Assembly (NCBI GenBank): GCA_017993055.1
Contig: JAGONM010000017.1
Coordinates: forward strand, 1-64,000
Source: Armatimonadota bacterium
Lineage (GTDB): Bacteria > Armatimonadota > UBA5829 > DTJY01
Length of the DNA stretch: 64,000 nucleotides
Reading direction: 5' to 3'
In this document: piece after piece, positions 6,778-43,557 of the stretch
Layout of the letters: each line of letters begins with the position of its first letter
How positions within the stretch are numbered: position 1 is the first letter of the stretch
Position numbers and translations under genes: made by a program
Notes under the pieces: generated by a model
Databases searched by the model: none
What the model was told of the DNA's origin: nothing
What the model saw: the letters and a program-made list of their open reading frames with translations, nothing else

Positions 6778-8835
6778 ATGAAAAGCCGCAGGACGCACGG
6801 CAGACGTGCCGGTCTTGCCTTCCTGCTACTTCTCGCCACCGCCTGTGCGGCGCCGATCTGCTGCGCCCAGACCCTGACGCTCGCCCCGGTCAACCCGGAG
6901 TTCGAGGAGTACCTGAAGCAGGCCTCGAGTGGTTGGACCCAGGCGTACGACTTGGACGGCCACTCGCTCGGCGCCGTGCCCCCGCGGGTTGATCTGTCCC
7001 ACATGAAGAACGAAGCAGTCCCCGGCCGCCAGGTCCTCGCGCTCCCGGCGTCCTACGACCTGCGCGCCACCGGCAAGCTCACGGCGATCAGGAATCAGGG
7101 CGGCTGCGGAAGCTGCTGGTCGTTCGGGACCTTCGGCTCGATGGAGTCCTGCCTCATGCCCGGCGAGGCATGGAACTTCTCCGAGAACAACCTGAAGAAT
7201 CGAAGCGGCTTCGACGTCCCCTGCTGTGACGGGGGCAACCACTACATGTCCGCCGCGTATCTCGCCCGCTGGGACGGCCCGGTCAACGAGTCGAGCGACC
7301 CGTACAGCGACAGCAATTGTACCTCTGCTGCCGGACTGCCCGTCCAGAAGCACGTCCAGCAGGTCCTGTTCCTGCCGAATCGGAGCAGTTCGACCGACAA
7401 CGCCGTCATCAAGCAGGCCGTCATGGACTACGGCGCCGTCTACACCCACATGTACTGGGTAAGCACGAGCTACAACAGCTCCCAGGCCGCCTACTACTAC
7501 TCCGGCACCGCCGCGATCAACCATGCGGTCTGCATCGTCGGATGGGACGACAACTATGACAGGCTGAAGTTTCCCACTACGCCGCCCGCGAACGGCGCGT
7601 TCATCATACGGAACAGCTGGGGCACGAGCTGGGGGCAGAGCGGATACTTCTACATATCCTACTACGACTCGAAGGTCGGCCGTGACAACGCCGTATTCTG
7701 CGGCAACTCGCCGACCGACAACTTCGACCGCATCTATCAATACGACCCGCTCGGCTGGGTGAGCAGCCTCGGCTACAACAGCGAGACCGGGTGGTTCGCC
7801 AATGTCTTCACCTCCGCCCAGCACGGGGAGATCGCTGCGGTCTCGTTCTACGGAGGCGCGCCGGGCGCGACATACGAGGTCTACGTCTACCTGAGCCCGA
7901 ACTCCGGTCCGATCAACACCACCGCGGGTTGGAGCGCCTTCAAATCCGGCACGCTGACATTCGCCGGCTACCATACGGTCAGCCTTGACGCGCCGGTGAC
8001 GGTCGCCGCCGGAGAGAAGTTCTCCGTCGTCGTCAAGATGACCACCCCGGGCTACAAGTACCCGATACCGTTCGAGACTCCGGTCGTCGGTTACAGCAGC
8101 GGGTCAACCGCAAGCTCCGGACAGAGCTATATCAGTTCCAAGGGGACTTCGTGGACCGACATCACATCGTCCTACGCGAACGCCAATGTCTGCTTGAAGG
8201 CATTCGTGAACGACGTCCAGCCGGTTGTCTCGATCGCCGCCGCGAAAGTCCTGCCGAACGGAAGTACGGCGGCCGTCCAGGGGGCGGTAGTCACGGGCGT
8301 ATTCAGCGCCACGTTCTACATTGAGGCCGATGACCGCTCCACCGGCATAGCAGTCTACAAGGTCGGGCACGCGCTGACGCCGGGCATGAGGGCAGACATC
8401 CTAGGCACGCTCTCCACCAACGCGGCCGGCGAGAAGTACATCAACGCCGTCTCCGCGACGCAGAACGGGAGCGGCTCCGTGGGGGCTCTGCTGCTGTCCA
8501 ACTGCCTGCTGGGCGGCGATGACTGGGCGTATGATGCGGTTACCGGCGCGGGGCAGCAGGGCATCAAGGATGCCATCAGCCTGAACAACATCGGTATGTC
8601 GGTCTGCACATCGGGAGAGGTCACCCAGGTCGGGAGCAACTACTTCTACATGGACGATGGGTCGGAGTGCCGTGACAACACGACATACGTGGGGGTGAAG
8701 GTCTCGACCTCGACCGGAATGAGCATTCCGCAGGTCGGAAAGTACGTGAAGGTCATCGGGGTCAGCTCATGCTCAAAGTCCGGGAGCGACCTCTACCGCC
8801 TGCTCCGCGCCACGAGCATCACGGTAATGAACTAG
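6778..8835 (+). CDS. secreted papain-like (C1) protease with tandem OB-like C-terminal domain
   Basis: A 685-aa protein with a basic N terminus and signal peptide (about 1-30). The mature C1-type domain is complete: oxyanion Gln107 and nucleophile Cys113 in NQGGCGSCWSFG, His249 in INHAVCIVGWDD, and Asn279 in RNSWGTSWG. A beta-rich lectin-like domain follows (about residues 310-470). Residues about 480-685 form two repeats resembling OB folds, and the same module ends the protein at 59379-62048. It is probably exported and active on extracellular protein. I chose ATG 6778 (GAGTGAGG upstream) over GTG 6766. Its stop overlaps the stop of the convergent gene in a shared CTAG (8832-8835). Confidence 0.88.
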   Translation: MKSRRTHGRRAGLAFLLLLATACAAPICCAQTLTLAPVNPEFEEYLKQASSGWTQAYDLDGHSLGAVPPRVDLSHMKNEAVPGRQVLALPASYDLRATGKLTAIRNQGGCGSCWSFGTFGSMESCLMPGEAWNFSENNLKNRSGFDVPCCDGGNHYMSAAYLARWDGPVNESSDPYSDSNCTSAAGLPVQKHVQQVLFLPNRSSSTDNAVIKQAVMDYGAVYTHMYWVSTSYNSSQAAYYYSGTAAINHAVCIVGWDDNYDRLKFPTTPPANGAFIIRNSWGTSWGQSGYFYISYYDSKVGRDNAVFCGNSPTDNFDRIYQYDPLGWVSSLGYNSETGWFANVFTSAQHGEIAAVSFYGGAPGATYEVYVYLSPNSGPINTTAGWSAFKSGTLTFAGYHTVSLDAPVTVAAGEKFSVVVKMTTPGYKYPIPFETPVVGYSSGSTASSGQSYISSKGTSWTDITSSYANANVCLKAFVNDVQPVVSIAAAKVLPNGSTAAVQGAVVTGVFSATFYIEADDRSTGIAVYKVGHALTPGMRADILGTLSTNAAGEKYINAVSATQNGSGSVGALLLSNCLLGGDDWAYDAVTGAGQQGIKDAISLNNIGMSVCTSGEVTQVGSNYFYMDDGSECRDNTTYVGVKVSTSTGMSIPQVGKYVKVIGVSSCSKSGSDLYRLLRATSITVMN

Positions 8836-27124: not shown

Positions 27125-30100
27125 ATGAGAATATGCATGCTCGTCATCTTCGCAGCCCTTCTCGCCGTCCCCGGCTTCGCGTACACGCCGCCGGACTACC
27201 CGCAGAGGCCGATGCTCGTGGAGTCGGTTTCGGTGAGGATGCCCTCCCGGGCTGCGCTCGGCTCCAACATCAGGGCGCAGTTCGACATCCGGTCGAAGGA
27301 GCCGTTGCCGGCGGACGCGAGGGTATTCCTCTACCTGAGCCTGGATGATAGAACATATGTGTCCCATGTGACCCATCCGTCGCGTTCCGTCTCCGTCGCC
27401 GTACCGAAGGACATCCCCTCAGGCGAGTACTCCGTCGAGGCCGGCGTCTTCGGCGAGAAGGCCGCTTGGAGCGGTACGATCCGCATCACCGGCGCGCCGT
27501 CGCCGGTTCTGCGCAAGATCATCACTCGCGGCACGTTCACCGACAAGTACGGCGTTCCTCACCGCTGGCACATCAACGACGCGCACGCCCTGGTCTGGGA
27601 CGGCGTACCCTGGATTCCGGCAGGCGGCATGTTCATCTACGACCGCGACTGGAACCTCGTGCAGGCGCAGCTCGAACTGCTCGAGAAGTATGGGGTCAAG
27701 GACATCTACCTCCACCTCGGAGTGAATCAGCCCTACCTCTGGAAGGACTACTCGGACGACGACTACGCCTACTTCCAGAAGACCATTGACTACCTCGACG
27801 AGCACGGTTTCCGCTACGGTGTCGAGTTCCAGGCGCTGGAGTCAAAGGGATACGGCTACCCCTATGTCGCGGGCGGCCCGAGGGTCGAGGTCACGGAGAG
27901 CGGGAAGGTCCGCGCCGAGGATAAGGACGTCAGAGGCGGATACTTCATGGTGGAGAATCAAGCGACCGGGGAGATGGTCCAGCACGGGTCGGTCACCGTG
28001 AGCGACAACAAGACCATGGAGGCCGACGTGAAGGTTCCGGGTACGGGCAAGTACAAGGTGATCTTCCTCCCCGACAAGATCGACGACGGTTTCGTCATGT
28101 ACTACTGGGGCGGCGTCTACGAGAAGTACCGCGACAAGGTGCTCGCTCACTACAGCAAGGTGAAGCTCGGACCCGGATTCCGGTTCGTGGTAGATCCGCT
28201 CTGGAACGAGATGAACACGCGGCACGGCCTCATTCCGAGTACCGACGACTACCGGCAGGCCTTCGGGAAGTGGCTCCGCCAGCGGTACGGCACGATCGAG
28301 AAGCTGAACGCCGCGTGGAAGCCTAGGGACGGCGCGTTCCCCGACTTCGCATCGGCCGCGAGCGCGGTCTCGATGGAGCGGACCGACGACCGGAAGACGA
28401 AGAAGCTGATCCAGTGGGTCTATGCCCCGAAGGTTGACAAGCTATATGCCCTCGATGCGACCACCAGCCAGTTCAACTACGACATCCGCGAGTATCACGG
28501 CCGGGCGATCCTTGAGTTCTGCAACCGGATCGCGGACGACTTCGGCCGGATCGCCGACGTGCCGGTGATCTACAAGTGCTTCTCGGACGTGGACTGGTGG
28601 CACATCAACGACACGGGCTCTGCCGGCGGCCACGACGGACTGGGGATGGAATCATACGGCACGGGCGAGCCGATGCTCCTCTTCATGGGCGTCCATGCAT
28701 ACGGCGAACTCAAGCAGGCGACGAAGACCACCTGGCTCGTCGTTACCGAGACCGGCGAGGGCAACCATCAGGACGCGTCTCCATCGCGCAACAAAGGCAT
28801 CGGCTACACCAGCCGCATGGGTACGATGTACGCCAACTACAATGCCCTGCTCTCCGGCGGCGCGAAGGGTGTCTTCCAGTACTACATGATAGGTGGGCGG
28901 GGTGTAGACCAGCCGTGGACCGACGCCGTCTCGCGCGATCCCCGGCAGCTCGAATGGCTTGCGACCTACGGCCGGATTCTGGCAAATGCGGACAAGCTCG
29001 TAGACTACAAGCCGCCGATCTACCTCAGACTGCCGGCGCACTTCAACCAGCACAGCATGGAGATCTACTCCGAGCCGAACTCCGATTTCTCGAACTACGG
29101 CGGCTGGTGGTGGCGCGAGCCGATCGGCCGCTCGCAGAACAACATCTGGATCGTGCCCGAGGTCAGCATGAAGGCCGACGTTGCGATGCATATCGTCAAC
29201 CTCGAGAAGCAGCCCGCGAGCGAGCGGTTCGCCGACGAGCTGACTCAGGCGATCGAGGACGGCAAGCGAGTGACGATGATCGGCTTCAGATATGACCTCG
29301 GGACTATACCCATAGTCGATCGGTACTACACCGACCGGTTCTCGACCGACAAGGACGGCCGCAAGTTCCAGGTGCTCCTCCCATCGCCCTCCGGGAGAGG
29401 GCCTGGGGGTGAGGGGGTCAAAGTCCTCGGCCAAAACGAGAAGGGCGAGGTCTGGAACCTAATCGTCGGCAACCTCCAGATCAACAGCAAGGAAGTCTTC
29501 CCCAGGCACGGCTACCAGCCGCAGGACCTGGCGGTCGGCAGGGAGAAGGCGCTCGATCCATACTACGGGATGTTCGATCTGCTCGGGGTGAAGCTCTTCG
29601 ACGGCGGGTTTGCCTACAGGGATGGCGGTGACTACGTGACGGTTGTGGAAACCGCAGAAGCTGTCCCCCTTGATAAGGGGGACCGGCCTCGGGGCCGAGG
29701 GGGTTCCGGAACCTCCTCCCAGCCTTCCTTATCAAGGAGGGGAGTTGCAGATGCCTTTGCGATCCCCGTGAAACCGGGCGAGAAAGTGGATGCGCGGTAC
29801 CCGGACGGAACTCCGGCGGGTGAGGTGAGGGATGGGAAACTGCACGTCTATCTCGAGCCGGTGTACATGAAACTCGTCCGCGCGAACCTCCCGTGGGCGC
29901 CGGAGGGAATCATGGTGGACTCCCTGGCGGCCCGGGATGCGGTTATCATCAAGAGTGCAGACCGAATACAGCCGAGTAAGCTTACGAGTAGGAGTACGAG
30001 TACGGGGCCTTACTCTGACTCCTCCATCACAGTCGAGGGCGAGAACCCCGTCGCCCACAACTGGAACTACAGCCGGATGGGCGCGATGCCGAACCTCTCC

Positions 30101-31048
30101 GGCGCGGCATGCCTCGCACTCGAGACCGCAGTCCCTCCTCCGGCGGACACCGGCTGGTACGCGAAGTACAGGTTCCGCGCCGACAAGCCGGGCGAGTATG
30201 CGATGTGGATCAGGGAGAACCTGCTCGGCTACTCGTCACCCTCTTCCTGGAGGATAGACGTCGGCGAGTGGCATGACTCGCCGAACACGCTCGTGCCTAG
30301 GGACGTCGAGGTCGTCACCCTGTACAACGCGCTCGAGGACACCCGCCAGATCTTCGCATGGTATCACTACGCCAACGTGAAGCTCCCAGCGGGCGATCAC
30401 ACGCTCACGATCAAGGTCAACGAGCCGCGCGGGAAGAACATGCTCGTCACCATGGCCGACGACCGCCCCTACGCCAAGATGATCGACTGCATCCTCTTCG
30501 GCCCGTCCCATCCGTCTCATCCGTCCTATCCGTCCCACAATCTCCTGGCAGACAACAGCCTCGAGTTCGATGAGGACAAGGACGACAAGCCCGACTACTG
30601 GACGAAGTCCGAGGACTCGGACAAGCTCGCGTGGACGAAGCCGGGCTGGGGCAACTACAAGATCGAGGGCCTGGTGGACATCAACTGCGGGATGCGCGAC
30701 TCGTACACCGGCCAGCGCGCCCTCCGCATTGATCCCGGCCCGTCCGAGCGGTCGTGGAACAGTGTCAGGCTGCCTGTAAGGCCTGGGGTGGAGTACGAGC
30801 TGGCGGGGTTCGTGCGCTCGACGAGCACCGATGCCCTGGGCATGTTGAGCGTCACATGGTACGACTCCGCGGGAAGAAAGATCGGGCGCACAGACACCAC
30901 TACCGTGGGAAACTCCGACTGGAAGCGGGTGGAGGTCACGGATGCCAGGAAAGCGTCGCACGCCGTCATATCCTGCGTGGTAACTCCCGGCACCAACGGC
31001 AGCGTATGGTTCGACGAGATCGTCTTCGCCGGGAGAGCGAAGCCGTAA
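27125..31048 (+). CDS. very large secreted glycoside hydrolase (GH42-like barrel, C-terminal CBM modules) carrying repeat insertions
   Basis: A 1307-aa protein with a signal peptide (about 1-19). An Ig-like domain (about 28-120) and a TIM barrel (about 135-720) follow, with GMFIYDRDWNLVQAQLELLE, DPLWNEMNTRHG (a probable acid/base Glu) and WLVVTETGEGNHQD (a possible nucleophile Glu). This arrangement resembles GH42-like beta-galactosidase-type barrels. A beta domain and two carbohydrate-binding-like modules occupy about 970-1307; the last contains NLLADNSLEFDEDKDDKPDY. At least five segments look like translated DNA repeats (27354-27384, 29379-29420, 29660-29749, 29968-30010, 30504-30538), all in frame. 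They lie mainly between domains, so function may be retained. GAAGGAG precedes ATG 27125. Confidence 0.75.
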   Translation: MRICMLVIFAALLAVPGFAYTPPDYPQRPMLVESVSVRMPSRAALGSNIRAQFDIRSKEPLPADARVFLYLSLDDRTYVSHVTHPSRSVSVAVPKDIPSGEYSVEAGVFGEKAAWSGTIRITGAPSPVLRKIITRGTFTDKYGVPHRWHINDAHALVWDGVPWIPAGGMFIYDRDWNLVQAQLELLEKYGVKDIYLHLGVNQPYLWKDYSDDDYAYFQKTIDYLDEHGFRYGVEFQALESKGYGYPYVAGGPRVEVTESGKVRAEDKDVRGGYFMVENQATGEMVQHGSVTVSDNKTMEADVKVPGTGKYKVIFLPDKIDDGFVMYYWGGVYEKYRDKVLAHYSKVKLGPGFRFVVDPLWNEMNTRHGLIPSTDDYRQAFGKWLRQRYGTIEKLNAAWKPRDGAFPDFASAASAVSMERTDDRKTKKLIQWVYAPKVDKLYALDATTSQFNYDIREYHGRAILEFCNRIADDFGRIADVPVIYKCFSDVDWWHINDTGSAGGHDGLGMESYGTGEPMLLFMGVHAYGELKQATKTTWLVVTETGEGNHQDASPSRNKGIGYTSRMGTMYANYNALLSGGAKGVFQYYMIGGRGVDQPWTDAVSRDPRQLEWLATYGRILANADKLVDYKPPIYLRLPAHFNQHSMEIYSEPNSDFSNYGGWWWREPIGRSQNNIWIVPEVSMKADVAMHIVNLEKQPASERFADELTQAIEDGKRVTMIGFRYDLGTIPIVDRYYTDRFSTDKDGRKFQVLLPSPSGRGPGGEGVKVLGQNEKGEVWNLIVGNLQINSKEVFPRHGYQPQDLAVGREKALDPYYGMFDLLGVKLFDGGFAYRDGGDYVTVVETAEAVPLDKGDRPRGRGGSGTSSQPSLSRRGVADAFAIPVKPGEKVDARYPDGTPAGEVRDGKLHVYLEPVYMKLVRANLPWAPEGIMVDSLAARDAVIIKSADRIQPSKLTSRSTSTGPYSDSSITVEGENPVAHNWNYSRMGAMPNLSGAACLALETAVPPPADTGWYAKYRFRADKPGEYAMWIRENLLGYSSPSSWRIDVGEWHDSPNTLVPRDVEVVTLYNALEDTRQIFAWYHYANVKLPAGDHTLTIKVNEPRGKNMLVTMADDRPYAKMIDCILFGPSHPSHPSYPSHNLLADNSLEFDEDKDDKPDYWTKSEDSDKLAWTKPGWGNYKIEGLVDINCGMRDSYTGQRALRIDPGPSERSWNSVRLPVRPGVEYELAGFVRSTSTDALGMLSVTWYDSAGRKIGRTDTTTVGNSDWKRVEVTDARKASHAVISCVVTPGTNGSVWFDEIVFAGRAKP
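27354..27384. repeat. 9-bp-period tract inside the glycosidase gene
   Basis: CATATGTGTCC, CATGTGACC and CATCCGTCG follow each other and are translated as YVSHVTHPSRS in the Ig-like domain. It has the CAT-NNN-TCC pattern of the intergenic tracts. Confidence 0.5.
29379..29420. repeat. CCCTCCGGGAGAGGG-type palindromic repeat, in frame
   Basis: Contains CCCTCCGGGAGAGGG and GGGGGTGAGGGGG. It is translated as PSPSGRGPGGEG, a low-complexity phrase unlike the surrounding domain. A related CCCCTCTCCCC/GGGGAGAGGGG palindrome is intergenic at 45134-45163. Confidence 0.7.
29660..29749. repeat. CCCCCTTGATAAGGGGG-type composite repeat, in-frame copy
   Basis: Shares the left palindrome (29665-29681), the block ACCGGCCTCGGGGCCGAGGG and the right CTTCCTTATCAAGGAGG end with the intergenic element at 947-1083, but lacks the middle. 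It is 90 bp, a multiple of three, and is read as VPLDKGDRPRGRGGSG and onward without a stop. Confidence 0.85.
29968..30010. repeat. ACGAGTAGGAGT reiterated tract, in frame
   Basis: TTACGAGTAGGAGTACGAGT then ACGGGGCC is translated as LTSRSTSTG. A similar GAGTATGAGTAGGAG phrase occurs on the minus strand just upstream of the aconitase gene (about 5091-5106). Confidence 0.5.
30504..30538. repeat. 9-bp-period tract, in frame
   Basis: CCCATCCGT (30507), CTCATCCGT (30516) and CCTATCCGT (30525) are followed by CCCAC. Because the period is three codons, it is read as SHPSHPSYPSH, between two carbohydrate-binding-like domains. Confidence 0.8.
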
Positions 31049-36314: not shown

Positions 36315-38315
36315 CTACAGTTCCAGGTTCAGCCACTTGACCTCTTCCGGCGTGAGTTCGATGTCGAGCGCCTCGGTCGAGACGCGCATCTCGTGCAGGT
36401 TCCCCGGCCCCACCAGCGCCCACGTCGGGAACGGCTGATGAAGCACCCACGCGAGCGCGATCTGCACCGGCTGCGCGCCCTTCTTCACCGCCAGTTCTCT
36501 CGCCCGATCGAGCCGCAGGAAGTTGTCCTCCGCGTACCAGCAGTTCACCAACTCTCCCTCGGTCACCCGGTTGCGGTCGCCCCGCACGAAGAACCCCTTC
36601 GCCAGGCTCGACCAGGCCAGCAGCGGGGTCTGAGTCTTCTCGAACCAGGACTTGGAGTCCTCGTCGGCCGATGCGATGCATCCGCCCCATGGCGCCTCGA
36701 CCATCCGCGCGAGGCTGAAGTTGTTGTTCAGCCCGACGAACGGCATGAGGCCCTTCGACTTCGCGTATGCGTTGGCCGCCTCGAAGCGCTCGATGCTCCA
36801 GTTCGAGCCGCCGAACACTCGGATGCGCCCGGCGTTCTTGTGCTCGTTCAGGACATCCACGAACTCGCCGACCGGCACCTCCGGGTTGTCGCGGTGCATC
36901 ATGTAGATGTCCACGTAGTCGGTCTGCAGGCGTTCCAGGGTCTCCATGAGCTGTGAGGTGAGGCTCTCGGGGTAGCAGTGAGGGGTGTGCGCCCCCTTCG
37001 CCAGGATGCTCACCTGCCCGCGAACTCCGCGATTCCTGATCCACTGGCCGAGGGTCCGGTCCACCTGCCCGCCGCCGTAGATGTACGCAGTGTCGAAGCA
37101 GTTGCCGCCGCATCGGAAGAACTCGTCGTACAGGACCGATGCGTAGGGCGCAAGATACGGCGTCGGCGCGACGGGGATGCCCATGATCTCCCGTGAGACC
37201 GGCTTGTCGAGGCCGGGGAGCCGCCCGTACTTCATGCGGTTACCCGGCCGTGCCTCCAGCGGCCGTCCGTCGGCGGTCGGGAAGTCGGCGTCCGGCTTCT
37301 CGATGTCGTATATCTGCCCGATCCCCGCGCGCCACAGGTCGCAGGTCCTCATGTTTCCCAGCGTCTCCTCCGGCGTCATGCACGGATGCGCCGCCTTCCC
37401 ATCGGCAATCCCGGCGGCGAACGCGTCGGCCTCGTAGGAGTAGAGGAACTTCGCCGCCTCCGTCGTCACCTCCTCGGGTTCCTTGCCCGCCCGGTTGACG
37501 ATGAACTTCGCGGTCCCCGGGTCTCTCGTCGGGTTCCACGGGGACGGGACGAAGATGTTCCCGTCCGTGCCGTAGATGCGCACCACGTTGTCCTGGCTCA
37601 GCCGGACGCCCGTGTAGACCCTCGCCAGGATGTCGTTCTCGAAGCGCATCGTGGCGACGGCGTATTCGTCCGCGCCGGTCTCTCCGATGTGGCCCATCGC
37701 CTTGATCTCGGTCGGCTCGTCGTAGGGCTTGCCGTTTGCGGCGCCGGCGATCAGCCGCGCCATGGACGTGCAGTAGCATCCCACGTCGAGGATGCCTCCG
37801 CCGCCGAGCGCGTTCTTGAAGAGCCTGCCCTCCGGGTTGTATCCCGCGTTGAAGCTGAAAGTCGCCTGGATGATGCGCACCTCGCCGATCGCGCCTCCTG
37901 CGACGGTCTCGTAGAGCTTCGCGGTGTGCGGGTGGCTCAGGTACATGAAGGCTTCCATGAGGAATACGTCGTGCAGGCGCGCGGCGTCCACCACGGCGGC
38001 GGCCTGGGCGTAGTCGAGCGTGAGCGGTTTCTCGCAGAGGATGTGCTTGCCGGCCTCCGCCGCCTTGATCGCCCACTCGGAGTGCATCGGATGGGGTGTG
38101 GCGATGTAGACGGCCTGGACGTCGCGGTCTGCGAGCAGGGCCTCGTAGCTCGCGTAACGGCGCTCGATTCCGTGCTCGCCGCCGAACTCGTCGGCCTTCT
38201 CCTGGTTGCGGCTGGCGACCGCGAGGAGTTCTCCGGTCTCCGATCCCTTCACGCCGTTTGCGAATACCCCCGCTATCCGGCCGGTGCTGATGATTCCCCA
38301 TGCGACTCTGCTCAT
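36315..38315 (-). CDS. Gfo/Idh/MocA oxidoreductase fused to an aldo/keto reductase
   Basis: A 666-aa two-enzyme fusion. Residues 1 to about 345 are a Gfo/Idh/MocA dehydrogenase: Rossmann start WGIISTGRIAG, Lys-containing EKP at 95-97, and GGGGILDVGCY near 171-181, as in dihydrodiol and anhydrofructose-type reductases. Residues about 370-666 are an aldo/keto reductase with a full catalytic tetrad Asp408, Tyr413, Lys440 and His474. Both halves look intact. The fusion suggests consecutive or reversible oxidation and reduction of a sugar intermediate with shared NAD(P). It is probably cytoplasmic. GAAAGGAC lies upstream of ATG 38315. Confidence 0.9.
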   Translation of the reverse strand: MSRVAWGIISTGRIAGVFANGVKGSETGELLAVASRNQEKADEFGGEHGIERRYASYEALLADRDVQAVYIATPHPMHSEWAIKAAEAGKHILCEKPLTLDYAQAAAVVDAARLHDVFLMEAFMYLSHPHTAKLYETVAGGAIGEVRIIQATFSFNAGYNPEGRLFKNALGGGGILDVGCYCTSMARLIAGAANGKPYDEPTEIKAMGHIGETGADEYAVATMRFENDILARVYTGVRLSQDNVVRIYGTDGNIFVPSPWNPTRDPGTAKFIVNRAGKEPEEVTTEAAKFLYSYEADAFAAGIADGKAAHPCMTPEETLGNMRTCDLWRAGIGQIYDIEKPDADFPTADGRPLEARPGNRMKYGRLPGLDKPVSREIMGIPVAPTPYLAPYASVLYDEFFRCGGNCFDTAYIYGGGQVDRTLGQWIRNRGVRGQVSILAKGAHTPHCYPESLTSQLMETLERLQTDYVDIYMMHRDNPEVPVGEFVDVLNEHKNAGRIRVFGGSNWSIERFEAANAYAKSKGLMPFVGLNNNFSLARMVEAPWGGCIASADEDSKSWFEKTQTPLLAWSSLAKGFFVRGDRNRVTEGELVNCWYAEDNFLRLDRARELAVKKGAQPVQIALAWVLHQPFPTWALVGPGNLHEMRVSTEALDIELTPEEVKWLNLEL

Positions 38316-38404: not shown

Positions 38405-40447
38405 TCACTTCGACTTCATGTGCCGCTCGTACACCTCGGCGTTGACTTCCCTCGCGGCGGAGATCAGCTCCGGGTACGGCGTGTCGGTCACGTCCACCAG
38501 CCCGATGTTGTAGTTCTCCCCGTCGTAGACGCGCCCCGTCAGCGGCTCGTCCACGTACTGGAACCAGTGGCATCCCACGAACGCCGGGCAGTCCGCGACA
38601 CTCTCGACGTAGCGCTTGAAATGCGCCGCGCGGTCGGCCTGGCTCTCCGTGGCGACGAGCCCCGTGTGCAGCATTCCCCTGTCCAGCGCCCCGAAGTGAA
38701 ACTCGCCGATGATGAGCGGCTTCTTCAGGCCGCCCGACCACTGAAGGCAGTCCACCTCGCGCCGATAGATGTTGAAACTGACGACATCCGACACGTCGTC
38801 GCAAGCTCTGACCGCCGCGGGATGGCTCCAGGCGAACCGGCATCCGAGGTAAAGCTGGTTCGGCGCGTGCTTCTTCACGGCCGCGCTGATGGTCTCGAAG
38901 TACCGACGCGCGAAGGCGTACACCCACTCTTCGAGGTACCTCCTGCACGCCTCATTCGGCCTGTCGGGTACTCGGAGCGCCTCCCAGGACGACGCGTCCG
39001 TTCCCCACGCCTCGTTCAGGGCTTCGAGCGATCCGTGCTTCGCCGCGAGCCTCTTGACCATCTCGACGCGGCACGGCTGATCAGGAGGGCTGGCGAGCGG
39101 CCCGCGCTCGACGGCGTCCCAGGCGATCTCGTTGTCCACGAAGTACCCGATGCAGAGCGGGTTTGCGGCGAAACCCCTGATCCCCGCGATGGACGCGTCC
39201 GCCGCGACGGCGTACCTGGGGTCGAATACGTCCGGCATCTTGCCCCAGTAGCCTCCTCCGCCCTCGATGCGCCGGAAGTCGCCGGACACGGATGCGTTCG
39301 CGGTGAAAGGCATCGGGCTGTGCTCGAGCACGTCCGCCGCCGACCAGTTTGCGACCGTGTTGAATCCCCACGCCCTCAGCCGCGCGTAGGAGTTCTCCCG
39401 CCACTTATCGTTCCAACCGTCGCCGTACTTGCGTATCAGGTTCGCCTTGTAGAAGTTGAACGTCCGGCCTCCTCCGCCGATCGCCTCTGCCATGCTGTGC
39501 GCGCCGGAATAGCGTCCGTAGGCGGCCTTGAACTCGCCCTCCGGGTCGGGCAGCCACTCGAACCAGGCCTCGCGCTTCTCGATGAAGGTCTGCTCCCAGT
39601 TGTTCACGCAGTCCGCGCCGATCGAGAGAAAGACGTGCCCCTCCGGCGTGACGAGCCACCAGCGCCCGCCGACCTTCTCCGCGCGGAACCATCCCGTCGC
39701 TTCCAGCTTCGGGCCGCCCATCCACCCGCCGAACCTGTCCCGGCCCGGGAGTTCAGGCGCAGCCCTGAGCGCTTTCTCCTCCTGGATTCGCCTTTCGGCA
39801 GGTTCCTTCTCGTCCACCAGCTTGCCGGGGTAGTCAGCGTGCTTGTACTGGCCGAACCTGTCAACGAACGGCAGGGCGGCCTTCTTGGCCGCCGGGCCGA
39901 ACGTCCTGAAGTTGCTGAGCAAGAGGGTGTGCTCCTTCGCCGGGCGAGGGAGAAACACCTGGAAGGCGGTGATCTTCGCCGGGTCTATCGGCCGGTCCTG
40001 CGAGCCGGACCCGCCGGGGATTCCGCGCATCCCCCAGAACGTCGCCTTGTCGCCGGTGCTGAGCCTCAGGCGGAGGGTCGTCCACTCTCCGGGAGCGGCG
40101 GTCGCGGTGCCGGTGTTGCAGTTGTTCGCCCCGTCCGCGCCCGCGTTGTCCACGCGCATCGAGACGGCCACCGGCTCCTCCTCAGGGTTGAAGACGTCCA
40201 CCGCGAGCCCCGGACTGGCGCTCCAGTCCCAGAGGCCTTCCGGGGGAGTGAAGTACACGTTCGGCCAGTCCACCTTATTGAAGCGAACCCGGAGGGCGGT
40301 TCTGCCGTCCTTAGTGGTAGGCGCCGCCTCGGTATTGACCTGCGCCATGTTCCCCGGCAGCGCGCTCGGGCTGAGCGTCACCGCCGGGGTCTCGTCGGCC
40401 GTCGCGCCGGCCGCCAGGATGCCCGCTATGACCAATGCGGAAACCAT
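38405..40447 (-). CDS. secreted agarase-like glycosidase (GH50-like)
   Basis: A 680-aa protein with a signal peptide (about 1-18). A CBM-like beta domain (about 20-180) precedes the barrel, which starts at GGRWWLVTPEGHVFLSIGAD. FVDNEIAWD holds a candidate acid/base Glu and KPLIIGEFHFGALDRG a candidate nucleophile Glu, and CHWFQYVDEPLTGR follows. The organisation resembles GH50 beta-agarases and related clan GH-A enzymes, so beta-linked galactan or agar-like polymers are plausible substrates, without proof. GGAGGAAACGGGC precedes ATG 40447. Confidence 0.75.
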   Translation of the reverse strand: MVSALVIAGILAAGATADETPAVTLSPSALPGNMAQVNTEAAPTTKDGRTALRVRFNKVDWPNVYFTPPEGLWDWSASPGLAVDVFNPEEEPVAVSMRVDNAGADGANNCNTGTATAAPGEWTTLRLRLSTGDKATFWGMRGIPGGSGSQDRPIDPAKITAFQVFLPRPAKEHTLLLSNFRTFGPAAKKAALPFVDRFGQYKHADYPGKLVDEKEPAERRIQEEKALRAAPELPGRDRFGGWMGGPKLEATGWFRAEKVGGRWWLVTPEGHVFLSIGADCVNNWEQTFIEKREAWFEWLPDPEGEFKAAYGRYSGAHSMAEAIGGGGRTFNFYKANLIRKYGDGWNDKWRENSYARLRAWGFNTVANWSAADVLEHSPMPFTANASVSGDFRRIEGGGGYWGKMPDVFDPRYAVAADASIAGIRGFAANPLCIGYFVDNEIAWDAVERGPLASPPDQPCRVEMVKRLAAKHGSLEALNEAWGTDASSWEALRVPDRPNEACRRYLEEWVYAFARRYFETISAAVKKHAPNQLYLGCRFAWSHPAAVRACDDVSDVVSFNIYRREVDCLQWSGGLKKPLIIGEFHFGALDRGMLHTGLVATESQADRAAHFKRYVESVADCPAFVGCHWFQYVDEPLTGRVYDGENYNIGLVDVTDTPYPELISAAREVNAEVYERHMKSK

Positions 40448-41556: not shown

Positions 41557-43425
41557 CTACCCCTCCAGCAGCGGGAACTCCGTGATCCGGAGCTTCGCGC
41601 ACCCGTAGGGGATCAGCGTCAGATCCTCGGCCGGCTCGGACGACTTCGCCGGGCTCTGAGGGAGCGGGCCGGCCTGGTTGTCGGCGAGCGTCCACTCCGG
41701 GATCTTGCGGCCCTTGACTCTCAGCTCGACCGGCGCGAACTCCGGGCCGTAGACCGTCCGGCCGACCGACTTCTTCACCACCTCGACCTCCGGCTTCTCG
41801 GGATCGAGCAGCAGCCCGTAGTTCCACGCCGTCGTCGGATGCACCGCGTAATCCGGGCACGGGTCCTCGCCCCTGATCTTCTCCCACCGCTCGCCGATCT
41901 TGAGCGAATACACAATCGGCCCGCGCCTTAGCGTGACCGAGTCGTTGAAACGCCGCTCGACGCGCACCTTCATCGGAAGACGCAGCTCGATGACGTCGCC
42001 GTTCTGCCACTCGCGCTCGATGGCGAGGAAAGTTCCCGGCTCGGCATGGTCCGCCTCGCCGTTGATGTGGACGCTCACTTCCTCGGCCCACGCGGGGATA
42101 CGGAAGCGAAGCGGGAAGGCGGCCGGCTTCGACAGACGCAGCGTTGCCTTGATCGTCTCATCCCACGGATAGTCGGTCTCCACGTCAATGCTGATCTCCT
42201 GGCCGCCGCGAACCTTCGCTCCAACCTGGCACGGGCCGTATGCCACCGCCGCGAGCCCCTCGTCCGGCGTCGCCATCCAGAGGTTGGCGGCGAACTTCGG
42301 CCAGCCCTGGTGGAAGTTCGCCGTGCAGCACCCGTAGTTCGGCTCGAGGCCGAAGAGGTTCGCGTCGTCGCCGTTGTTGGTCCAGTGCCGTTTCGCGATC
42401 GTGCAGAGCACCTGGTTCGCCTGCTGATCGTACTGATGCTGCCACATATCGGCCGTAAACGTGCCTGGGAGCGCGTTGTATGCTATCATCTCCAGCTGGT
42501 CGCCGAACGCGGGATCGCCGAACATCTGCATCAGGTTCTCGAGCGAGAACATGTACTCCACGACCGCGCACAGCTCCGTGCCCTGAGTCGGATTCCTGCC
42601 CGCGTAGTGCTCGTCGCCGGTGAAGATGCCGGCCGCCGTCCCATGGAACTTGTCGAGCATCTCGATGGTCTTGCCGACCGCATCCTTGTGCTCCTGCCAG
42701 CCGGTCAGGACGTACTGCACGCCGGGAGTCTTCGCCGCCATGCCGTTGTTCACGACGTGCGTCCGCATGGGGAAGTTCAGCGCCTGCTTCTGAGTGTGGC
42801 CGAAGTCGGTGAAGTGCCAGCTCCAGTCGTAGCCCTGACGCATGATGTCGTTAGCCAACTCGATCAGCTCGGGGTCGCCGTTCCGATTGTAGAGCCAGAT
42901 GATGCTCAGGATCGTGTCGGCCCACCGGACCTTCGCCCATGAGTGCATCCGGTTGTTCGGAAGCTCGCGCTTCATGTACTTGAAGAACCGCTCCATCAGC
43001 GGGATCACGCGCGGGTCGCCGGTGGCCTCGTGGTACTGCGTGAGCGCCTTCAGGATGACCCCGAACGGCCACCAGTCGCTGAGCGACTTCGGCCCGAAGT
43101 GGCCGCTCTCGTCCTGGCTGCCGAGAGTCCACTCCGTGAACCTGCGCGCGATGCCGATCAGCTTCTCGTCATCGAGCAGGTACGCGAGCGGGATCAGCCC
43201 GTCGAGGTAGTACGGCCCGCGTTCCCAGCTCTCGCCGGTACCGCCGAGCCACCCGCTGTTCGGCCCTAGCGAGTCCCAAAACTCCGGCAGGTGGCCGGTC
43301 TGGCCGTTCGCCTGGACCGTGAGCTGCTGCTTGAGCCATCCTCGGGGCTTCACGCTCCCGAGCGGCAGGAAGTCGAATGCGGCATCCTGAAGCGGCGCGC
43401 GGTTCGATGCATAAAGTCGGTTCAT
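41557..43425 (-). CDS. beta-L-arabinofuranosidase, GH127
   Basis: A 622-aa enzyme with an (alpha/alpha)6 barrel. The unusual zinc-thiolate active site is complete: Glu284 and Cys286 in GTELCAVVEY, and Cys366 and Cys367 in NYGCCTANF, matching the Glu, Cys, Cys, Cys ligands known for GH127. It should remove beta-L-arabinofuranose from hydroxyproline-rich or pectic arabino-oligosaccharides by a cysteine nucleophile. C-terminal beta domains span about 420-622. No signal peptide is visible, so it is probably cytoplasmic. ATG 43425 has GGAG upstream; the GTG one codon earlier is an alternative. GH146 is a related possibility. Confidence 0.92.
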   Translation of the reverse strand: MNRLYASNRAPLQDAAFDFLPLGSVKPRGWLKQQLTVQANGQTGHLPEFWDSLGPNSGWLGGTGESWERGPYYLDGLIPLAYLLDDEKLIGIARRFTEWTLGSQDESGHFGPKSLSDWWPFGVILKALTQYHEATGDPRVIPLMERFFKYMKRELPNNRMHSWAKVRWADTILSIIWLYNRNGDPELIELANDIMRQGYDWSWHFTDFGHTQKQALNFPMRTHVVNNGMAAKTPGVQYVLTGWQEHKDAVGKTIEMLDKFHGTAAGIFTGDEHYAGRNPTQGTELCAVVEYMFSLENLMQMFGDPAFGDQLEMIAYNALPGTFTADMWQHQYDQQANQVLCTIAKRHWTNNGDDANLFGLEPNYGCCTANFHQGWPKFAANLWMATPDEGLAAVAYGPCQVGAKVRGGQEISIDVETDYPWDETIKATLRLSKPAAFPLRFRIPAWAEEVSVHINGEADHAEPGTFLAIEREWQNGDVIELRLPMKVRVERRFNDSVTLRRGPIVYSLKIGERWEKIRGEDPCPDYAVHPTTAWNYGLLLDPEKPEVEVVKKSVGRTVYGPEFAPVELRVKGRKIPEWTLADNQAGPLPQSPAKSSEPAEDLTLIPYGCAKLRITEFPLLEG

Positions 43426-43557
43426 CACTCCATCACCTCACCAGTCCAATACTCCGTTCCCATGCCGGAAACCTGTTCTTAACCTCTGCGCAATATGGAT
43501 GAAACCCGACTCCGTTAGCATACAGGAGCGCGAACATACTCCAAGGAGGCGACACTC

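Follow-up and report, generated by a model that had tools for sequence, protein, structure and literature searches.

Glucose-fructose and aldose-aldose oxidoreductases have tightly bound NADP, and oxidise one aldose while another sugar is reduced. The protein described here joins a Gfo/Idh/MocA dehydrogenase (the Gfo half) to an aldo/keto reductase (AKR), and its Gfo half is similar in fold to both enzymes. The likeness of the Gfo half extends to dihydrodiol dehydrogenase and KijD10, with identities across these relatives of 22-28%. Furthermore, the lysine of its EKP motif and the tyrosine of its DVGxY motif align with dihydrodiol dehydrogenase and KijD10. Unlike the fusion, such Gfo-type relatives are chains of no more than 433 residues and have no AKR half. 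The AKR half is a TIM barrel, like DepB and the IolS-type AKRs (26% identity to PDB entry 7utf and 24% to 8hwn). Unlike the fusion, these are separate proteins with no dehydrogenase attached. In the deoxynivalenol system, oxidation to a ketone is reportedly followed by AKR-catalysed reduction to the other epimer, which resembles the chemistry we propose below. Briefly, DepB reduces 3-keto-deoxynivalenol in this two-step epimerisation (PMC9427786). For the first step, one paper names a quinone-dependent dehydrogenase, not a Gfo enzyme (PMC10146952). The deoxynivalenol system also differs from the fusion in using two separate proteins.

Counterparts in architecture are encoded by rhizobial plasmids. 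Among the full-length matches listed, these proteins share the complete two-domain arrangement of the fusion with about 44-48% identity. They are annotated after one half, as either 'aldo/keto reductase' or 'Gfo/Idh/MocA family oxidoreductase'. Many database proteins share the fusion architecture, and those annotated among the records inspected carry names of this kind. Queries of the openly licensed literature, several of them narrow, found no published description of a Gfo-AKR fusion or its reaction, which is a weak negative.

The fused gene lies in a 64,000 nucleotide stretch of DNA, from an Armatimonadota bacterium, that we refer to as the window (Table 1). On the minus strand, the open reading frame starts with ATG at 38315, stops at 36315-36317, and has no internal stop codons. 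The assigned start is sound since a ribosome-binding-like AAAGGA sequence is found five bases 5' of the ATG. Matches to the Pfam families GFO_IDH_MocA (residues 5-121, E 1.4e-22, 81.1 bits against a cut-off of 24) and GFO_IDH_MocA_C3 (residues 132-253, E 4.2e-20, 72.4 bits, cut-off 27) are followed by Aldo_ket_red (residues 388-659, E 4.5e-45, 154.4 bits, cut-off 24). The last of these is near full length, covering profile positions 18-284 of 291. The linker, residues 341-360, has the sequence PDADFPTADGRPLEARPGNR. An earlier, sequence-only reading of the window had described a complete Gfo/Idh/MocA-AKR fusion with proline and glycine in the link region. Both descriptions hold; there is one intact frame with both sets of Pfam domains, and the linker contains several residues of each kind. 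In the 3.7 Mb genome from which the window derives, one or other half has 47 matches at E <= 0.001, and only the window fusion spans both halves. These 47 matches represent a large set of sugar-type oxidoreductases.

Table 1. Positions of the fused gene and its parts in the window.
Feature	Coordinates	Strand	Evidence
Fused gene, Gfo/Idh/MocA dehydrogenase + aldo/keto reductase, 666 aa	36315..38315, stop included	-	ORF and Pfam
Gfo/Idh/MocA half, residues 1-340 (Rossmann and C-terminal domain)	37296..38315	-	Pfam, structure match 2o48
Linker, residues 341-360, Pro/Gly-containing, predicted ordered	37236..37295	-	Sequence, AlphaFold model
AKR half, residues 361-666 (TIM barrel)	36318..37235	-	Pfam, structure matches 7utf, 8hwn (DepB)
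Met361 (ATG), probable fossil start of former AKR gene	37233..37235	-	Conservation, separate AKR starts
EKP motif, residues 95-97	38025..38033	-	84/84 rows
Tyr181 of DVGxY motif	37773..37775	-	84/84 rows
Asp408 and Tyr413 of AKR tetrad	37077..37094	-	84/84 rows
Lys440 of AKR tetrad	36996..36998	-	84/84 rows
His474 of AKR tetrad	36894..36896	-	84/84 rows

Both halves appear equipped for catalysis. Across 84 aligned rows of fused sequence (83 distinct, because one, L001, is the window again) the residues E95, K96, P97, D177, G179, Y181, D408, Y413, K440, H474, S504, and N505 are identical throughout. A group of 8 closely related fusions from rhizobia also has every one of these residues. This bears out the earlier proposal that the catalytic residues of both halves (EKP at 95-97; D408, Y413, K440, and H474) are kept, since all are identical in the 83 distinct fusions. 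R36 of the Gfo half is also identical in 84/84 rows, and occupies what we take to be the usual position for holding the NADP phosphate. The second catalytic residue of Gfo/Idh/MocA enzymes is presumably tyrosine or histidine, here Y181. When aligned with KijD10, K96 corresponds to Lys102 and Y181 to Tyr186, where numbering is by counted offset. According to the entry titles, Lys102 and Tyr186 are the residues altered in PDB entries 3rc9 and 3rc7. The AKR tetrad aligns with that of IolS. Because the catalytic residues of both halves are strictly conserved, and those of the Gfo half match KijD10, it is unlikely that one half is dead and kept as a scaffold.

The fusion can be placed in both families. 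The Gfo half has a Rossmann and a C-terminal domain above the Pfam cut-offs, together with the EKP lysine and Y181, as expected of the Gfo/Idh/MocA family. The AKR half is a TIM barrel with the Asp-Tyr-Lys-His tetrad of the AKR superfamily (Pfam, 84/84 rows, and a Z score of 33.2 with 7utf). The fusion does not reach the curated NCBIfam scores for the specific activities inositol 2-dehydrogenase (105.4 against 355 bits), D-xylose dehydrogenase Gfo6 (95.4 against 350), levoglucosan dehydrogenase (85.3 against 650), or methylglyoxal reductase YdjG (54.8 against 550).

AlphaFold, supplied with 65 fused sequences, produced a confident two-domain model (pLDDT 95.5, pTM 0.93). The two ten-residue blocks of the linker have pLDDT values of 93 and 95, so the model does not support a floppy linker. 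The Gfo half best resembles dihydrodiol dehydrogenase (2o48; Z 43.4, rmsd 1.6, 317 residues aligned), followed by KijD10 (Z 40.0), aldose-aldose oxidoreductase (Z 39.3), and glucose-fructose oxidoreductase (Z 38.2). Its best structure matches also include 1,5-anhydrofructose reductase. For the AKR half, matches include 7utf (Z 33.2) and DepB, 8hwn (Z 33.1); they are few, because the Gfo half fills the list of the best 50 rows. Among those 50, no PDB match spans both halves and each covers essentially one. Similarly, the 50 PDB sequences matched by a profile of the fusion at 1e-20 are all 433 residues or shorter.

To be an artefact, the fusion would have to result from an assembly or sequencing error joining two genes, a possibility that gains no support even though separate gene pairs occur in relatives (see below). 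We scanned one genome per species, confirmed 371 relatives, and kept the best 80 of the 371. Both halves are in one open frame in 78 of these 80 contigs, the exceptions being loci L064 and L084. One of the 78, L083, runs off the contig end within the AKR half. By record title, fused contigs derive from Armatimonadota, Chloroflexota, Planctomycetota, Verrucomicrobiota, Actinomycetota, and others. Many are metagenome bins, and named strains of Ktedonobacter, Kribbella, and Actinopolymorpha are also represented. Of 203 public plasmid records with a match, mostly from Rhizobium and Sinorhizobium, 195 have 80% or more of the query covered at a single place. With so many independent contigs fused, an assembly error is excluded for practical purposes. 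The case that the sequence-only reading had named as refuting, a stop or frameshift at the junction, is absent from 78/80 contigs.

Two loci in this set deserve comment. In L064, an otherwise fused-type Verrucomicrobia sequence, an in-frame TAA (7099-7101) directly follows the methionine that matches Met361. This may be a nonsense change, a split, or a sequence error. An Omnitrophota contig, L036, has a second Gfo gene (7421-8461), lacking an AKR half, near its fusion. This gene is sister to the Gfo half of that fusion, and may reflect domain loss after duplication.

Next, we consider where the fusion came from. The sequence-only reading had suggested looking in relatives for the two halves as separate adjacent genes. 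We surveyed 291 Armatimonadota genomes, of which 135 have a match at E <= 1e-60; our hand counts are lower bounds. Sequences fused across the junction occur in at least 25 genomes, the window's own included. Four of these are cut by contig ends, and one is in two pieces of one open frame. Adjacent, separate halves were indeed found, in at least 25 of the 291 genomes, always with the Gfo gene before the AKR gene. At least 11 of these genomes have both halves in one match row split by a stop, and at least 14 have two adjacent match rows on one strand. In fetched DNA, 24 of 25 separate pairs were seen again, and two more pairs were added by L107 and L136. We conclude that descent of the fusion from neighbouring Gfo/Idh/MocA and AKR genes, in that order, is well supported by these comparisons.

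The organisation of the separate pairs is informative. In 9 of 25 that were examined, a possible AKR start overlaps the Gfo stop by 4 bases. Note that L113-L115, among these nine, are near-copies. A 4-base overlap of stop and start is typical of translational coupling, and neighbouring Gfo and AKR genes in many relatives are probably coupled. Of seven loci inspected, L104 and L107 have AGGAG preceding the next start, and L109 has no AKR after the Gfo gene. A start reading M/V-K-Y-G is offered in 12/25 pairs, and residues 361-364 of the fusion are MKYG. The ATG at position 361 is kept in 77/84 rows (76/83 distinct); the rhizobial fusions lack it, with proline or valine there. An internal translation start at Met361 is not supported, since a Shine-Dalgarno-like motif precedes it in 8/77 rows, compared to 114/1339 for other internal Met codons. 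Separate AKR genes offer starts at the matching place, the ATG is kept, and there is no ribosome-binding excess. Hence, Met361 is probably the fossil start codon of a former AKR gene.

Trees of each half, both of the quick type and made without bootstrap, speak to the number of fusion events. In the AKR tree, a single clade (support of 100) unites the halves of 82 fused rows with L064 and L084. Outside this clade are 27 separate AKR genes. Because L064 and L084 fall within the fused clade they are probably later splits, or perhaps, for L064, a sequence error. The Gfo tree has a group of 14 separate Gfo genes outside the fused rows. A further 12 separate Gfo genes, most of which pair with a separate AKR gene, are among the fused rows, as are L036_S, L064, L084, and L139. 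The free tree did not yield a single fused Gfo clade. A constraint grouping the 83 fused Gfo rows with L036_S, L064, L084, and L139 cost 6.2 log units and was not rejected (p-AU 0.43). From these sequences, one fusion event is most likely; the AKR tree supports this and the Gfo tree fails to reject it.

Transporter genes adjoin the fusion in some lineages. In three Rhizobium loci (L140, L141, and L149), a divergent regulator is followed by genes for a solute-binding protein, two permeases, an ATPase, and then the fusion. The order is the same in Sinorhizobium sp. B11 (L144). In Rhizobium johnstonii 3841, the fusion is RL_RS27245 and the solute-binding protein is RL_RS27265. At least 80% of the 7.2 kb Rhizobium block is held by 123 plasmid records, many of closely related strains. 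S. meliloti L150 has a different ABC set, which faces a ROK regulator and ends in the fusion; the start of the fusion overlaps the ATPase gene by 4 bases. Two Kribbella loci have a binding protein, two permeases, and the fusion in a row. These transporters were found by tblastn alone, since at high GC content, as in the Kribbella loci, the gene caller missed genes or called ORFs on the antisense strand. Actinopolymorpha has permeases upstream of the fusion on the opposite strand.

Most loci are less telling. In tblastn searches of flanks up to 6 kb, permease matches were found, as a raw count, in only 3/80 best contigs (L068, L085, and L086). The remaining 77 had no permease or binding-protein match in these flanks, and two had an ATPase match only. 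No transporter adjoins the fusion in S. medicae (L143) or in some S. meliloti strains (L142); 13 records hold the regulator next to the fusion. In L142 (8452-12022), compared with L150 (3334-11074), the ABC transporter is missing between the ROK regulator and the fusion, with both flanks kept. Where the target was recognised, and with crude gene calling, no neighbour on the same strand lies within 120 bp in 48/100 loci. The Pfam hits of 96 partner ORFs are scattered. Note that this tally covers 96/98 ORFs; it excludes the L064 AKR frame and one L130 frame, and uses the L139 frame in shortened form. Where a cluster of flanking genes recurs in five or six loci, most of the contigs involved are also near neighbours in the trees, and we rejected the neighbourhood as a guide to function.

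In the window, a beta-agarase homologue (38405-40447, minus strand; 4bq2, E 4.6e-115) is encoded on the same strand, 89 bp upstream of the fusion. We take 4bq2 to be a family GH50 enzyme. At E 0.001, Pfam detects no domain in this homologue. Across loci L011-L139, the window's agarase has a single, distant match, in L054 (28% identity). Since the fetched relatives have no agarase beside the fusion, we rejected an agar-specific role. Elsewhere in the window, 41557-43428 (minus strand) encodes a GH127-type protein, a relative of beta-L-arabinofuranosidase and aceric acid hydrolase. A 1307-residue protein (27125-31048, plus strand), with a very weak GH42 match below the cut-off, may be an undescribed glycoside hydrolase. 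Separately, an Enterococcus plasmid (L148, 5893-7610) has a lone AKR of the same branch (36.6% identity), adjoining a sugar phosphate isomerase/epimerase and an ABC transporter.

What, then, might the fusion do? In what follows, we infer the substrate, direction, and channelling. With a little less than even confidence, we favour a reading in which the fusion takes an imported sugar through two NADP(H)-dependent steps, perhaps oxidation and then reduction, so that the outcome is redox-neutral. The Gfo half would use NADP+ to oxidise a hydroxyl of a carbohydrate, with Lys96 and Tyr181 as catalytic residues. The AKR half would then use NADPH to reduce a carbonyl via Tyr413, Lys440, His474, and Asp408. 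Acting in sequence on one carbohydrate, the halves would achieve a net epimerisation or isomerisation, converting an unusual imported sugar or polyol to a common one. A dehydrogenase and a reductase in one protein fit oxidation then reduction, as reported for deoxynivalenol with DepB-type two-step systems. Where an uptake operon ends in a single enzyme gene, that enzyme should be able to feed the imported sugar into ordinary metabolism unaided, and a net redox-neutral conversion would explain why it can be the only enzyme gene in such operons. The ABC-transporter operons of rhizobia and Kribbella also fit the role in sugar metabolism that the sequence-only reading had claimed. That reading is thereby supported in part, while the channelling, oxidation-first order, and epimerisation that it proposed are hypothetical. 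Several observations count against our reading: the uninformative neighbours at most loci, the S. meliloti and S. medicae fusions without an adjoining transporter, and the 12 separate Gfo genes inside the fused Gfo group. Close relatives of both halves include enzymes called reductases (KijD10, 1,5-anhydrofructose reductase, and DepB), which counts against oxidation followed by reduction. In its strongest form, the fusion would be a 'redox isomerase', a single polypeptide in which a keto sugar, perhaps with NADPH, passes internally between a dehydrogenase and a reductase site, so that no cofactor is consumed overall. A fusion of two enzymes need not channel, and we regard this form as doubtful.

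Carbonyl reductases are among the nearest structural matches of both halves, so two reductions are possible. A serious rival, to which we give an appreciable minority share, is that each half reduces one of the two carbonyls of a dicarbonyl or keto-aldose, such as a compound of the deoxyosone or anhydrofructose type, and NADPH is used twice, in salvage or detoxification. The structure matches of the Gfo half (dihydrodiol dehydrogenase, the 3-ketoreductase KijD10, and 1,5-anhydrofructose reductase) and of the AKR half (IolS, general stress protein 69, and DepB) are consistent with this, as are genes that often stand alone and transporter matches in only 3/80 contigs. However, a detoxification enzyme is not expected as the sole enzyme gene ending a sugar ABC-transporter operon. 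Rather less probable again is that the halves carry out separate, non-consecutive steps of a single pathway, or serve two partners, one sugar being oxidised and another reduced, with fusion providing for equal dosage or cofactor recycling alone. The aldose-aldose (Z 39.3) and glucose-fructose (Z 38.2) oxidoreductases that match the Gfo half point towards two partners. For non-consecutive reactions, the difficulty is that the transporter operons have just one annotated enzyme gene and therefore do not encode a longer pathway.

If the two-step conversion of an imported sugar is correct, a single enzyme assay could assign a catabolic step common to Armatimonadota, Chloroflexota, Planctomycetota, Actinomycetota, and rhizobia that nodulate plants. 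Hundreds of database entries that at best bear the name of one half (371 relatives and 203 plasmid records, with the fusion confirmed for part of them) would gain a function. In the rhizobial operons, the substrate is open to direct test, since the ligand of the transporter should be the substrate of the enzyme. Were the fusion also a redox isomerase, it would replace the conventional isomerase or epimerase pathway for imported rare sugars across many phyla.
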